DNA from: Ensifer adhaerens
Lineage (GTDB): Bacteria; Pseudomonadota; Alphaproteobacteria; Rhizobiales; Rhizobiaceae
Direction: 5' to 3'
Assembly (NCBI RefSeq): GCF_028993555.1
Contig: NZ_CP118610.1
Location: forward strand, 2,046,001-2,110,000
Length of the DNA stretch: 64,000 nt
Shown here: positions 3,586-27,910 of the stretch, one piece after another
Numbering within the stretch: the first letter of the stretch is position 1
Layout: each line of letters begins with the position of its first letter
Program-made: the position numbers and the translations under genes
The notes under the pieces: generated by a model
What the model was told of the DNA's origin: nothing
What the model saw: only the letters and a program-made list of their open reading frames with translations
Database searches by the model: none

Positions 3586-4647
3586 ATGAAAGACATTGCC
3601 TATCCCTTCAGGGATCACTCCGAGGCCGAGATGATCTCTGACCGAAACCTCTTCGATCGCCTCATCACCTGGTACGAATCCGCCAGGGCCGAGCGTCGCG
3701 AACGGACGAAGAGCCGCGAGGTTGATTTGCGCTGCGTCAGCCCGCAGGGGCAAACGTCGCTCTACCCTGATGATCTCCCCCTGGTTTTCCTCACCCGCAA
3801 CAATGTCAACCTGATGCCAGGCTTTCTGGCGCATTACCGGTCGCTGGGCGTTACCCGCTTCATCTGCGTGGATGATGCCTCGACCGATGGAACGCGGGAA
3901 TATCTGCTCGGCCAGCCCGATGTCGACCTGTGGGCGTCTGCGCTGCGCTACGGGGAAGCCCGGCGCGGCAGCCTCTGGCGCGAGGCGCTGTTTGCGCGTT
4001 ATGGCGGCGACCGCTGGTACGTGAACGTCGATTCCGACGAGTTCCTGATTTACGACGATTGCGAGAGCCGCACGCTTTGGTCGGTGATCCATGCGCTCGA
4101 GGATCTGAAGATTTCACGGCTGCCCGCACCGAAGCTGGACATGTATCCGGTCAATCTGCGCACGGTAGACGTCGATCGGCTGAATACCCGCGCCCCCTGG
4201 GAGGTCGCCGATCATTTCGACAGTCGCGGCTATTTACTGGCAACGGACGCCCGCGCCATCACCGTCAAGGGCGGCGCGCGCCACCGCGAGTTCGAATCCG
4301 ATCTGGAACTGATCAAATATCCGCTGATCTTCTGGGACGAGGACTGTCGCTTCGGCGCCAGCATCCATCAGCCGCTGCCCTATCAACGCAACTTCGCTTC
4401 GGTGCTCGGCGCCCTCCTGCATTTCAAGTTCTTCGCCGACTATGAGGAACTCATCGAGGACGCCGTCGCCGACAGGCAGCATGTTCGTGGCTCGGCTGCC
4501 TCAGCCAGGGTGACGGAAGCGCTCACCGGCACCGGTGCGCTGCAGCTCTTTTCCTATTCCTCGGTGAAATTCGGCGGTTCGAAGCAATTGCTGCGGCTCG
4601 GCTTCATCACCCCCATTCCCAAGGGCGCCGCTGGCGGCAAGCGCTAG
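3586..4647 (+). CDS. glycosyltransferase family 2-like protein
   Basis: 353 residues. The core matches the Glyco_tranf_2_4 type: a beta strand LVFLTRNNVNLMPGFLAHYRSLG, the nucleotide-binding FICVDDASTDGT around residues 92-103, and the metal-binding acidic motif NVDSDEFLIY around 146-155, which plays the DxD role. A histidine-containing FRHREFE-like region follows (GARHREFES). No membrane segment, so it probably acts at the cytoplasmic face on a surface polysaccharide. The start at 3586 gives MKDIAYPFRD after a weak ribosome site. It stands alone, so the polymer it serves cannot be deduced from neighbours. Confidence 0.75.
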   Translation: MKDIAYPFRDHSEAEMISDRNLFDRLITWYESARAERRERTKSREVDLRCVSPQGQTSLYPDDLPLVFLTRNNVNLMPGFLAHYRSLGVTRFICVDDASTDGTREYLLGQPDVDLWASALRYGEARRGSLWREALFARYGGDRWYVNVDSDEFLIYDDCESRTLWSVIHALEDLKISRLPAPKLDMYPVNLRTVDVDRLNTRAPWEVADHFDSRGYLLATDARAITVKGGARHREFESDLELIKYPLIFWDEDCRFGASIHQPLPYQRNFASVLGALLHFKFFADYEELIEDAVADRQHVRGSAASARVTEALTGTGALQLFSYSSVKFGGSKQLLRLGFITPIPKGAAGGKR

Positions 4648-25018: not shown

Positions 25019-25414
25019 TTAGACCAGATTGGTCTCGACATTGATGTTGCCGCGGGTCGCCTTGGAGTACGGGCAGATCTCGTGGGCGGCGTGGATCAGC
25101 TCGTGGGCAACGTCGCGATCGAGGCCGGCCAGGCTGACGTTGAGGCGTGCGCTGAGGAAGTAGGAACCGTCATCGACGCTGAGATTGATGTCGGTCTCGA
25201 CTTCGGGGCCGGCCGGGAGCTTCACCTTGCGCTGCAGTGCGGCAAGCTCGATCGCGCCGATGTAACAGGCCGACCATGCGGCGCCGAACAGGTTTTCCGC
25301 GGCCGGATGCGGCTGCGACAGCTTGAGCTCAAGCGTACCGTCGCTGCTGCGGGTGCCGCCATTGCGGCCGCCGGTGTTGTGGGTCTTGCCGGTGAATACG
25401 AGCTTTGCGGTCAT
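25019..25414 (-). CDS. ohr: organic hydroperoxide resistance protein Ohr
   Basis: 131 residues from ATG 25414 (MTAKLVFTGK, GAGAGGAAA upstream). Thiol peroxidase of the OsmC/Ohr family; the two catalytic cysteines are Cys50 (AWSACYIGAIE) and Cys114 (HEICPYSKATRGN), and the GGRNG segment supplies the conserved Arg19-type residue. It reduces organic and lipid hydroperoxides using dihydrolipoyl reductants (family knowledge). Divergent from ohrR; its promoter (TTGACG, 17 bp, TATATA on the minus strand) overlaps the OhrR box. Confidence 0.95.
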   Translation of the reverse strand: MTAKLVFTGKTHNTGGRNGGTRSSDGTLELKLSQPHPAAENLFGAAWSACYIGAIELAALQRKVKLPAGPEVETDINLSVDDGSYFLSARLNVSLAGLDRDVAHELIHAAHEICPYSKATRGNINVETNLV

Positions 25415-25441
25415 GTCATTTCCTCTCTGTTTGATTTTTAA

Positions 25442-25530
25442 TCGTATCCGCTTCAATCGGATGCGATGTATATAGATGAAGTGGAATGCGCCGTCAACAC
25501 CATTGCGATTTAATCGGATACGATTTATAT
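25442..25530. promoter_or_regulatory. ohr-ohrR divergent promoter with two OhrR-type boxes
   Basis: Box A (25442-25466) is the inverted repeat TCGTATCCG-N7-CGGATGCGA; box B (25504-25530) is TGCGATTTAATCGGATACGA followed by TTATAT. Both share the core ATCGGATRCGAT. The ohr -35 (25492-25497, minus strand) and -10 (25469-25474) have a 17-bp spacer; the ohrR -10 is TTATAT overlapping box B. The same two boxes recur upstream of the DUF3095 gene. Confidence 0.75.
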
Positions 25531-25568
25531 TAAGTACAGATACGGAAAGAGAAAAAAAAGGAGATCCC

Positions 25569-26054
25569 ATGCCCACCTCCAAGACTGCGAGCCCTGAGAC
25601 CACGCCTGCAAAGGGCGGCAAGAAGCTCTCCAACTTCCTGTGCTTTGCGATCTATTCCGCAAACCTCGCCTTCGGCCGCGCCTACAAGCCCCTGCTCGAC
25701 AAGCTGGGCCTGACCTATACCCAGTACGTGACCCTGGTGGCACTCTCGGAAGAAGACGACCAGACGGTCAGCATGCTCGGTGAAAAGCTGTTCCTGGAAT
25801 CGAACACGCTGACGCCGATCCTCAAGAAGCTCGAGGCCGACGGCTACCTGCAGCGCCGGCGCGATCCCTCGGACGAGCGGCAGGTACGCCTGACGTTGAC
25901 GCCGGCCGGCCGCGAGCTGGTGGATGCCGATCCCGGTTCGGCACTCCTTGATGCCACCGGCCTCGGCGACGACTTTCCGGTCGTGCAGCAATCGGTTGCG
26001 ACCCTGCGTGACAACCTGCTGCGCTCCACCCAGCCTGGATCCCGCAAGGAATAG
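25569..26054 (+). CDS. ohrR: MarR-family organic peroxide sensor OhrR
   Basis: 161 residues from ATG 25569, preceded by AAAAGGAGATCCC. The single reactive cysteine is Cys25 in NFLCFAIYSANLAF, with Tyr30 and Tyr50 placed as in OhrR proteins that hydrogen-bond the reduced thiolate. Winged helix: TVSMLGEKLFLESNTLTPILKKLE and the wing RRRDPSDERQVRLTLT. No second cysteine is seen, so it is of the one-Cys type. It should repress ohr until oxidised. A strong terminator follows. Confidence 0.95.
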   Translation: MPTSKTASPETTPAKGGKKLSNFLCFAIYSANLAFGRAYKPLLDKLGLTYTQYVTLVALSEEDDQTVSMLGEKLFLESNTLTPILKKLEADGYLQRRRDPSDERQVRLTLTPAGRELVDADPGSALLDATGLGDDFPVVQQSVATLRDNLLRSTQPGSRKE

Positions 26055-26082
26055 CTTCGCCCCACTCCGGGAGACGTCACCG

Positions 26083-26112
26083 AAAGGGCGGCCGGTGGCC
26101 GCCCTTTTCATT
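26083..26112 (+). terminator. Rho-independent terminator of ohrR
   Basis: Perfect 11-bp stem AAAGGGCGGCC/GGCCGCCCTTT with a GGT loop, then TCATTTTA. It lies between convergent ohrR and the DUF3095 gene and can serve both directions because the stem itself starts with AAA. Confidence 0.85.
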
Positions 26113-26136
26113 TTACCGATCGAGTCACCATCGGCG

Positions 26137-27162
26137 CTAGGCCACCTGGCGCTTGCGCGGCTCCATCATCTCGGCCGCCTTGGCATAGCCGCCGTCCATG
26201 CCATCCAGAAAATGCAAGTGCGCATCCGGCCGGGCTGATGGAACCAGGCAGGTCATCAGCGCATGCGATTGCCGGTGCAGCCCGAAATTGACCTCACCCC
26301 TTGCCCTTGCCGCAAGGAGGATCGCTTCGGCCCGATCGATCTGCCCGACAGCGGCGTCCACCGTCAGGCGAAGACCGTCGTCGTATTTGCGGAAGTCCGA
26401 ATTGGCGGCAACGCCCAGCCAGCGCTCCGGCGCGATATGGACCCGCTCATCCTTCGGCACGCCCATTTCCGTGGGCAGCGGATGCGACTGCCGCGGCGCC
26501 TCGTCAAAGACGGCCATCACATCTCTCGCAAGCTCCGCAAAGCGCTCGGGCGCCACAGCGTCCGTCGGCTCGACCAGCAGCGACAGGATCTGCCCGTGCC
26601 GGCTCGGAAACGGCCGCCACTCGCAGGCAAGCCCCGTCAGATCCGGTTCGGTGCCGTCCCGGTCCGGCTCGAGCTGGTAGCGCCCGTTCTTCAGCTGCTG
26701 CTCCGCCCATTTGAGCCCGCCGCCGGCAAACATCGCGTAAGTGGCGTCTTGCGAAGCGGCGTAGCGTGCGATCTTCACGTCCTGCCCGTTGGCGCGGATT
26801 TCCCGGACCGTCAGAAGGCCGACGCGAAGGTCGAGGCGAAATCGATCCTTCACGAAGGCCGCAATCTGCCTGAGCGCCGCGGTTGCCGTCATCTCCCCCT
26901 CGGGCGGCAGCGCCAAGGCGGCGCCATCGCCACGAAAGACGAAGGGGAAATCGAAATTTCCCCAGGCATTGCCGATCGCCGCGATGGCCGAGGCGCCGGT
27001 ATAGTTGACGTCCTCGTAGCGCCCGGACCTGATTGCCCCGGTGGAGTCGACGACATCGGTGATCCCCACCAGCCAATCGTCGGGCAACGGCTGATAGGCA
27101 TCCAGGTCCAGCACCAGCGAAAACTCGCTATAGGCCTGCACGCGTTGGGGTTCGAACTGCAT
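26137..27162 (-). CDS. DUF3095 protein, cyclase-like core, predicted OhrR target
   Basis: 341 residues from ATG 27162, chosen for the GGAGGAAGC ribosome site; the frame continues upstream into the promoter boxes, which cannot be coding. The N-terminal region has LVGITDVVDST (residues 32-41) and FVFRGDGAAL (75-84). In class III nucleotide cyclases two metal-binding aspartates sit about 44 residues apart in just such strand and hairpin contexts; here Asp36 and Asp79 are 43 apart. That DUF3095 is a degenerate or active cyclase is inference. The C-terminal half (GQILSLLVEP onward) is unassigned. Its promoter mirrors that of ohr, so peroxide induction is expected. No signal peptide. Confidence 0.75.
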   Translation of the reverse strand: MQFEPQRVQAYSEFSLVLDLDAYQPLPDDWLVGITDVVDSTGAIRSGRYEDVNYTGASAIAAIGNAWGNFDFPFVFRGDGAALALPPEGEMTATAALRQIAAFVKDRFRLDLRVGLLTVREIRANGQDVKIARYAASQDATYAMFAGGGLKWAEQQLKNGRYQLEPDRDGTEPDLTGLACEWRPFPSRHGQILSLLVEPTDAVAPERFAELARDVMAVFDEAPRQSHPLPTEMGVPKDERVHIAPERWLGVAANSDFRKYDDGLRLTVDAAVGQIDRAEAILLAARARGEVNFGLHRQSHALMTCLVPSARPDAHLHFLDGMDGGYAKAAEMMEPRKRQVA

Positions 27163-27267
27163 CAGCTTCCTCCAGTCGACGGACTGATCGCCACAGCCGG
27201 GGCGCTTCGCCAGGGATGCCGGAGCGCCTGCGGGCACAACGCCATCCATGGGCTGCTGCCCCACATT

Positions 27268-27334
27268 AAGTCGGATGCGATATAAATACCGGAACACGCA
27301 ATGTCAATACAATGCGATTTAATCGGATACGATA
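27268..27334 (-). promoter_or_regulatory. DUF3095 promoter with two OhrR-type boxes
   Basis: On the minus strand TTGACA (27302-27307) and TATATC (27279-27284) are 17 bp apart. A box with TCGGATGCGAT (27271-27281) overlaps the -10, and TGCGATTTAATCGGATACGA (27313-27332) lies upstream of the -35: the same arrangement as in the ohr promoter. The 20-bp upstream box is identical to the one between ohr and ohrR. Confidence 0.75.
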
Positions 27335-27427: not shown

Positions 27428-27910
27428 TCACGCGATCGCGGTGATTTCCAGCTCCTGCTCGCCGACGCTCATGACATCGCCGACCGCCTTGCCCATGAGG
27501 ATTCTCGCCACGGGCGAGACATAGGAGATCGATCCCGCCTTGGGATCGGCCTCATCCTCGCCGACGATCCGGTATGTCTGCACCCGTCCGTCGTCGCGGC
27601 TGAAGGTGACCGTGCTGCCGAAGGCGACGGTATCGGTCGATGCGGGATCGGGCATGAGCTGCGCGCTGCGCAACCGTTCGGAAAGGTAGCGCACGTCGCG
27701 CAGCGGCCCCGCCTGCTGGCGGCGCTTTTCGTTGACGTCGTCGATCGTGGCCGCCGCTTCGTAGGCGACACGCGCCTCCTGCATCTGGGCCTCCAGCGCC
27801 TTCAGCCCGGCTTGCGTCACCAGGTTCGGATGCGGCGAAATCGGACGATCCGGCAACAGTGTTTCGGCGGCCGTTTCGGCACTTTCTTCCTTGGTGAAGG
27901 CAACGCTCAA
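27428..27910 (-). CDS. GreA/GreB-family transcription elongation factor-like protein
   Basis: 160 residues. An N-terminal coiled coil (LVTQAGLKALEAQMQEARVAYEAAATIDDVNEKRRQQAG) followed by a compact C-terminal FKBP-like domain with TVAFGSTVTF, YRIVGEDEADPKAGSISYVSPVARILMGKAVGD. This matches the Gre-factor fold, though the long N-terminal extension (MSVAFTKEESAETAAETLLP) marks the alphaproteobacterial paralogue rather than GreA proper. The start appears to be TTG at 27910, because no ATG lies nearby and GGAG precedes it. It may act in the RNA polymerase secondary channel; target unknown. Confidence 0.8.
   Translation of the reverse strand: MSVAFTKEESAETAAETLLPDRPISPHPNLVTQAGLKALEAQMQEARVAYEAAATIDDVNEKRRQQAGPLRDVRYLSERLRSAQLMPDPASTDTVAFGSTVTFSRDDGRVQTYRIVGEDEADPKAGSISYVSPVARILMGKAVGDVMSVGEQELEITAIA

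Follow-up and report, generated by a model that had tools for sequence, protein, structure and literature searches.

A DUF3095 gene of Ensifer adhaerens probably belongs to the regulon of an adjacent OhrR-type repressor

Two described regulators of Sinorhizobium meliloti resemble the locus studied here. The Ohr/OhrR system, with the published motifs GCAAATTAATTTTG and GCAAATTGCTTTGC, likewise has divergent ohr and ohrR genes, two OhrR sites in the region between them and a peroxide-sensing repressor of the MarR family (PMC3107159). SydR is an OhrR-like MarR redox sensor with two sites in a divergent promoter region, with the operator TATCGCGATA and the described target SMa2023 (PMC11633110). 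We analysed a window of 64,000 nucleotides from E. adhaerens (contig NZ_CP118610.1, positions 2,046,001 to 2,110,000 of the forward strand), and positions below are those of the window unless a contig or locus is named. It holds a gene for an Ohr-family thiol peroxidase (ohr, 25019..25414, reverse strand), a divergent gene for a MarR-family repressor of the OhrR type (ohrR, 25569..26054, forward strand) and a gene for a 341-residue protein of the DUF3095 family (26137..27162, reverse strand). We consider it highly probable that the adjacent one-cysteine OhrR-type repressor controls a regulon of two promoters which includes DUF3095, and that DUF3095 is an old partner of Ohr with two cyclase-like domains. 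Judged from sequence, a role of the DUF3095 gene in the peroxide response is very likely.

The 20-mer TGCGATTTAATCGGATACGA lies between ohr and ohrR (25504-25523) and again upstream of DUF3095 (27313-27332), identical in both places, as a sequence-only reading of this DNA had claimed. It was absent from 100 shuffles, and the entire genome (7.77 Mb) contains only these two exact copies and one copy with three mismatches, at 25442-25461. We also agree with that reading that both promoters have a TTGAC-type −35 element and a 17-bp spacer: the putative ohr promoter (25469..25497, reverse strand) reads TTGACG (25492-25497) and TATATA (25469-25474), and the putative DUF3095 promoter (27279..27307, reverse strand) reads TTGACA (27302-27307) and TATATC (27279-27284). 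A second box, TCGGATGCGAT, is found at 25457-25467 on the ohr side and 27271-27281 on the DUF3095 side. It had been said to overlap the −10 element in both promoters, which holds for DUF3095, where the overlap is 3 bp, but not for ohr, where the box ends 1 nt before the −10. The proposed common arrangement of two boxes was likewise borne out. The boxes are spaced 57 bp at ohr and 52 bp at DUF3095; the promoters thus have a common layout and not a common helical phase.

The 20-mer belongs to a 27-bp imperfect palindrome, the full operator, for which our own consensus is ATCGNATCCGATTNAATCGGATNCGAT. Putative operator A of ohr (25441..25467) lies directly downstream of the −10, includes TCGGATGCGAT, pairs at 11 of 13 arm positions and is kept in relatives, and putative operator B of ohr/ohrR (25498..25524) includes the 20-mer and pairs at 7. 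At DUF3095, the 20-mer lies within putative operator B (27307..27333; 9 of 13), and putative operator A (27255..27281) has the conserved half-site TCGGATGCGAT, which reaches 3 bp into the −10. An 18-bp operator pattern, allowing at most two mismatches, matched the genome four times (three sites) at the window locus and once in the promoter region of a paralogue, and its reversed control matched once. Among 394 genomes of the family, the exact pattern TCGNATCCGATTNAATCG was found in 27 copies spread over 16 genomes, and every one of the 27 stretches contains ohr, ohrR or DUF3095. The two-box pattern gave 24 matches in 16 genomes of the genus, 22 of them in stretches with one of these genes and two away from them (G006:C12 and G010:C16). 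The shuffles, the two exact copies in the genome and the 27 of 27 copies at these genes in the family exclude a dispersed repeat or a chance similarity as the origin of the box, an explanation to which we give next to no credence.

Conservation within the genus follows the same lines. An orthologue of the window ohrR is present in all 16 genomes and DUF3095 of the window type in 13 (in G006 split over two contig ends), and the box pair lies ahead of the DUF3095-bearing transcription unit in all 13, counting G004, where each box deviates from the strict pattern at one base, and G009, where one box does. DUF3095 is the first gene of its unit in eight genomes (the window's own, G001, G004 and G006-G010), follows a second ohr in G002, G003, G013 and G015, and follows ohr itself in G014. 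Across the eight first-gene promoters the boxes are 52-55 bp apart and have mean column identities of 0.875 and 0.925, against 0.56 for the spacer (16 ungapped columns), a figure counted without gaps and depressed by length changes. In G012, ohrR abuts greA, and DUF3095 and its boxes are both absent.

A contig scan with the DUF3095 alignment extended this survey to 74 loci from Ensifer, Sinorhizobium, Rhizobium, Pararhizobium, Phyllobacterium, Microvirga and other Rhizobiales, which are related and were found via conserved DUF3095 peptides, making their counts neither independent nor unbiased. The genes looked for around DUF3095 were ohr, ohrR, greA and amidohydrolase, and the loci were divided into 61 close and 13 distant ones at 62% identity to the window protein, a threshold chosen after the data had been seen. 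Among the close loci, ohr is directly upstream of DUF3095 in 49 and not in 12, and an ohrR of at least 60% lies within the locus in 54. At least one strict box TCGNATNCGA was found within 300 bp upstream of the unit in 57 of the 61 (48 of 49 with ohr and 9 of 12 without); the four others are L144, at a contig end, L155 and L159, which are fragment matches, and L092, which has two boxes with one and two mismatches. Over all 74 loci, the 300-bp stretches ahead of ohr, ohrR or DUF3095 (61,102 bases) hold 145 boxes and the remaining 706,983 bases hold 13, a difference in density of about 129-fold. Six close-type genomes without ohrR near DUF3095 (L090, L092, L095, L097, L101 and L106) all have one elsewhere, of 70-79%; five of them have a strict box and L092 has the near boxes. 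Boxes are thus kept upstream of DUF3095 orthologues co-inherited with ohrR, which is the check that the sequence-only reading had named, in 13 of 13 genus genomes and 57 of 61 close loci, with 27 of 27 exact operators at these genes.

None of the 13 distant loci has a strict box or an ohrR of at least 60% in the locus (that of L148 is 54%), and eight of nine distant-type genomes searched for ohrR have none above 56%. Ohr directly precedes DUF3095 in 10 of the 13, boxes being absent there. Upstream of these ten divergent pairs (L137-L142, L145-L147 and L152, at about 4330-4450) we observed TAACAACGCCTAACGTG-like sequence instead of the box, as an inverted repeat in several, and the pairs seem to be under another regulator. 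Where genes were listed, in L137, L141 and L146, an epoxide-hydrolase-like gene (with an EHN domain in L141) diverges upstream of the pair. On a Phyllobacterium plasmid (L254, NZ_CP104968.1) a MarR-ohr-DUF3095 set adjoins traA, and because of this the module may move between rhizobia. We note that the window's own genome has a second type of DUF3095, which is longer and 45% identical, beside a metallo-beta-lactamase-fold gene (L001 1500-3750, G000:C2:1935406-1936521), with no TCGNATNCGA box in its 4.1-kb stretch. The metallo-beta-lactamase-fold gene was rejected as a conserved neighbour of this second type, being found in only 1 of 15 fetched loci (L044) and in 0 of 13 of the window type.

The identity of the proteins at the window locus was examined next to these patterns. 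The ohr product has both family cysteines (C50 and C114), scores 121.5 bits against TIGR03561 (cut-off 88.85) and matches 19 distinct Ohr/OsmC-type sequences of solved structures at E≤1e-10. The repressor matches Pfam MarR, its best solved relatives are OhrR 2pfb/2pex and 1z91, and its sole cysteine, Cys25, aligns with the LCFALYSA region of 2pfb; its gene adjoins ohr, with the repeated sites in their common intergenic region. It scores below the cut-off of the NCBIfam OhrR equivalog NF052638 (112.4 bits against 200), a family whose short name ends in Vib, which we take to mean Vibrio. The genome gave 12 matches to the window repressor, four of them a close OhrR-like set: the window gene, C1:2883983 (59%), C1:676898 (52%) and C1:4140932 (49%). 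The 52% paralogue adjoins another ohr, with GCAAATT-type sites between the two; this published type of rhizobial operator was not found at the window pair, where the operators read GCGATTTAATCGGATACGAT. Because the GCAAATT-type sites are at the other pair, sequence comparison makes the window gene an OhrR-type paralogue with its own operator, one of four OhrR-like genes, rather than the gene closest to the rhizobial OhrR that has been characterised. The earlier naming of the regulator as OhrR is therefore right as to type, by relatives, Cys25 and the ohr neighbour, and not as to equivalence with the published protein. A GreA-like gene (27428..27910, reverse strand) lies upstream of DUF3095 in the same reading direction, and control of greA by the boxes was ruled out by this orientation.

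With four OhrR-like genes in the genome, another of them could bind the DUF3095 boxes, alone or with the neighbouring repressor. The chief candidate is the 59% paralogue beside an alpha/beta hydrolase gene, which has similarly built intergenic sites (CGATTAAATCGTGTGCGA at L008:1317), one of them the sole operator-pattern match outside the window locus, with two mismatches. We judge this very unlikely: in all nine genus genomes carrying the paralogue, the 290 bp examined upstream lack TCGNATNCGA, and its stretches have ATCGYGNNCGA instead; the seven of 16 genomes from which it is missing at the cut-off used all have ohr, a second ohr or DUF3095 behind a two-box promoter. The wings of the paralogue's sites (L008 1310-1450, about G000:C1:2883790-2883930), ATCGYGNNCGA and not GATNCGA, mark the two, on their sequences, as paralogues whose operators have diverged. 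Beside the fourth OhrR-like gene, the intergenic region (L010 1340-1480, near G000:C1:4140932) has TTATCGCGATA, like the published SydR sites.

How a lone DUF3095 came to have an ohr-type promoter was addressed with a 72-row tree that combined the window and four genus rows with 67 of the 74 loci (all but L143, L144, L151, L155, L156, L159 and L160) and was built by a quick search with an outgroup of our choice. DUF3095 without adjacent ohr occurs in an Ensifer group of seven and a Rhizobium group of six (98 and 100, respectively, in the Shimodaira-Hasegawa-like approximate likelihood ratio test, SH-aLRT) and on the long branch L148, and the gene-order label (ohr adjacent or not) needs three changes on the tree, of which strongly supported branches alone force one. 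Both groups are boxed, and the six Rhizobium promoters retain a second box that differs by 2-4 mismatches. In L124, placed beside the window group, an ohr copy that has diverged but is still open lies between promoter and DUF3095; an ohr remnant in the 108-bp DUF3095 leader was sought and rejected, as the matches were of 8-11 bp only and none was convincing. The window DUF3095 promoter aligns with the promoters of the second ohr that precedes DUF3095 in relatives, with box, TTGACA and box in common. Because of this alignment the ohr and DUF3095 promoters are probably not independent, contrary to what had been supposed. By these comparisons, ohr-DUF3095 is most likely the older state, from which an ohr copy was lost at least once with the operators kept, and a second independent loss (two in all) is probable. 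The same alignment, with the drift in spacing to 52-55 bp, could mean that the DUF3095 boxes no longer serve any function and are left over from an ohr promoter that was duplicated or deleted. We find this very improbable, since the boxes are conserved while the spacer between them diverges, are kept in both groups without adjacent ohr, and are absent along with DUF3095 in G012.

The DUF3095 product scores 359.4 bits against PF11294 (E 3.1e-107; curated cut-off 22.2), the only family that Pfam found on it. Its predicted structure (predicted local distance difference test 86.8; predicted template modelling score 0.84) resembles two class III nucleotide-cyclase domains joined in one chain, and by this model the protein has the cyclase fold. 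Two putative metal-binding residues, D36 and D79, placed by motif and a non-significant profile alignment, are invariant in 23 of 23 sequences. The places of the transition-state residues are motif-aligned positions (151/155 and 327-332), set without residue-level structural superposition and uncertain. In the first half, the Asn place has K, R, N, T, S, A or H (Asn in 3 of 23) and the Arg place Q, R, H or others (Arg in 7 of 23); in the second, there is no Asn at 327, 328 or 330, and Asn at 332 in 2 of 23. Because the Asp pair is invariant but the transition-state Asn and Arg appear unconserved, DUF3095 is probably a nucleotide-binding or non-canonical cyclase-fold partner of Ohr. That it is an active nucleotide cyclase making a second messenger on peroxide stress would be compatible with the regulation proposed here; we hold it possible but doubtful, given these substitutions at uncertainly placed positions and the lack of a PADLOC match. 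Slightly more doubtful still is the fuller version, in which organic-peroxide stress turns on DUF3095 with Ohr, and DUF3095, an enzyme of cyclase fold whose product may be unusual, converts peroxide damage into a nucleotide second messenger.

Other comparisons of DUF3095 gave little. Profiles of its halves showed no significant similarity to cyclases or to each other, and a viral fold library gave no match at E≤0.001. One match of solved-structure sequences to DUF3095 alignment A1 (E 1.9) was taken as chance, and an assignment to Pycsar was dropped, with 0 PADLOC families at E≤10. The genome is rich in cyclases, with 47 matches to the class III family PF00211. OhrR may control a cyclase gene in Chromobacterium, although we did not find this confirmed in the literature.

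From the boxes, their conservation, gene order, co-inheritance and the predicted fold we infer binding by the window repressor, peroxide induction, co-transcription and nucleotide binding, as follows. At each promoter, dimers of the reduced repressor would occupy two operators, of which one lies upstream of the −35 and the other at the −10 or immediately downstream of it, and so block transcription of ohr, the repressor's own gene and DUF3095. Organic hydroperoxides would oxidise Cys25, the repressor would leave the DNA, and Ohr and DUF3095 would be produced together. An ancestral ohr-DUF3095 unit would have lost its ohr copy and retained the operators, leaving the lone DUF3095 of the window behind an ohr-type promoter. 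DUF3095 would most likely bind nucleotide and metal through Asp36 and Asp79, as a signalling or regulatory partner and not a standard cAMP cyclase. Conservation, gene order and operator specificity support the earlier proposal that one repressor serves both ohr and DUF3095, an extension of the OhrR regulon.

Several points weigh against this account. The downstream DUF3095 operator (27255-27281) is a weak palindrome, with 5 of 13 arm positions paired, and the boxes are unequally spaced at the two genes. G005, G011 and G012 have ohrR but only the other type of DUF3095, and the L143 genome has an ohrR of 73%, itself preceded by a box at a distance of 48 bp (L228:1506), yet no box before its 55% DUF3095. 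The ungapped spacer identity, the late choice of threshold, the relatedness of the loci and the single forced change of gene order, all noted above, count here as well. The fold claim draws on a predicted model and VIA-align; whole-length Foldseek superpositions are loose (best template modelling score 0.43-0.46, root mean square deviation about 10), and hhalign of DUF3095 against 30 cyclase domains of the same genome gave a non-significant probability of 0.6%.

For DUF3095, a family of unknown function, this provides a predicted fold and points to a likely regulator and to a condition that likely induces it; its tie to Ohr extends over Ensifer, Sinorhizobium, Rhizobium, Phyllobacterium and Microvirga. 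For root-nodule bacteria and their relatives, this suggests a nucleotide-binding arm of the organic-peroxide response besides the peroxidase. We found no mention of DUF3095, or of OhrR with DUF3095, in the literature covered, which leaves out most subscription papers. Compared with two-domain, single-chain class III adenylyl cyclases (human sAC and the membrane enzymes AC5, AC8 and AC9), DUF3095 has no significant profile similarity, and the transition-state Asn and Arg are unconserved at the motif-aligned positions. PaPycC (6YII), a clade A PycC (PMC11224242), is 7% identical to DUF3095, which differs from it also in having no PADLOC match and in its link to ohr. Unlike SydR, the window repressor has an operator other than TATCGCGATA, and the target described for SydR is neither ohr nor DUF3095 (PMC11633110). 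As for the S. meliloti Ohr/OhrR system, sites like its published OhrR motifs (PMC3107159) are found in this genome at the separate pair C1:676898-677798, whereas the window pair has CGATTNAATCG with GATNCGAT wings and operators in common with the DUF3095 gene.
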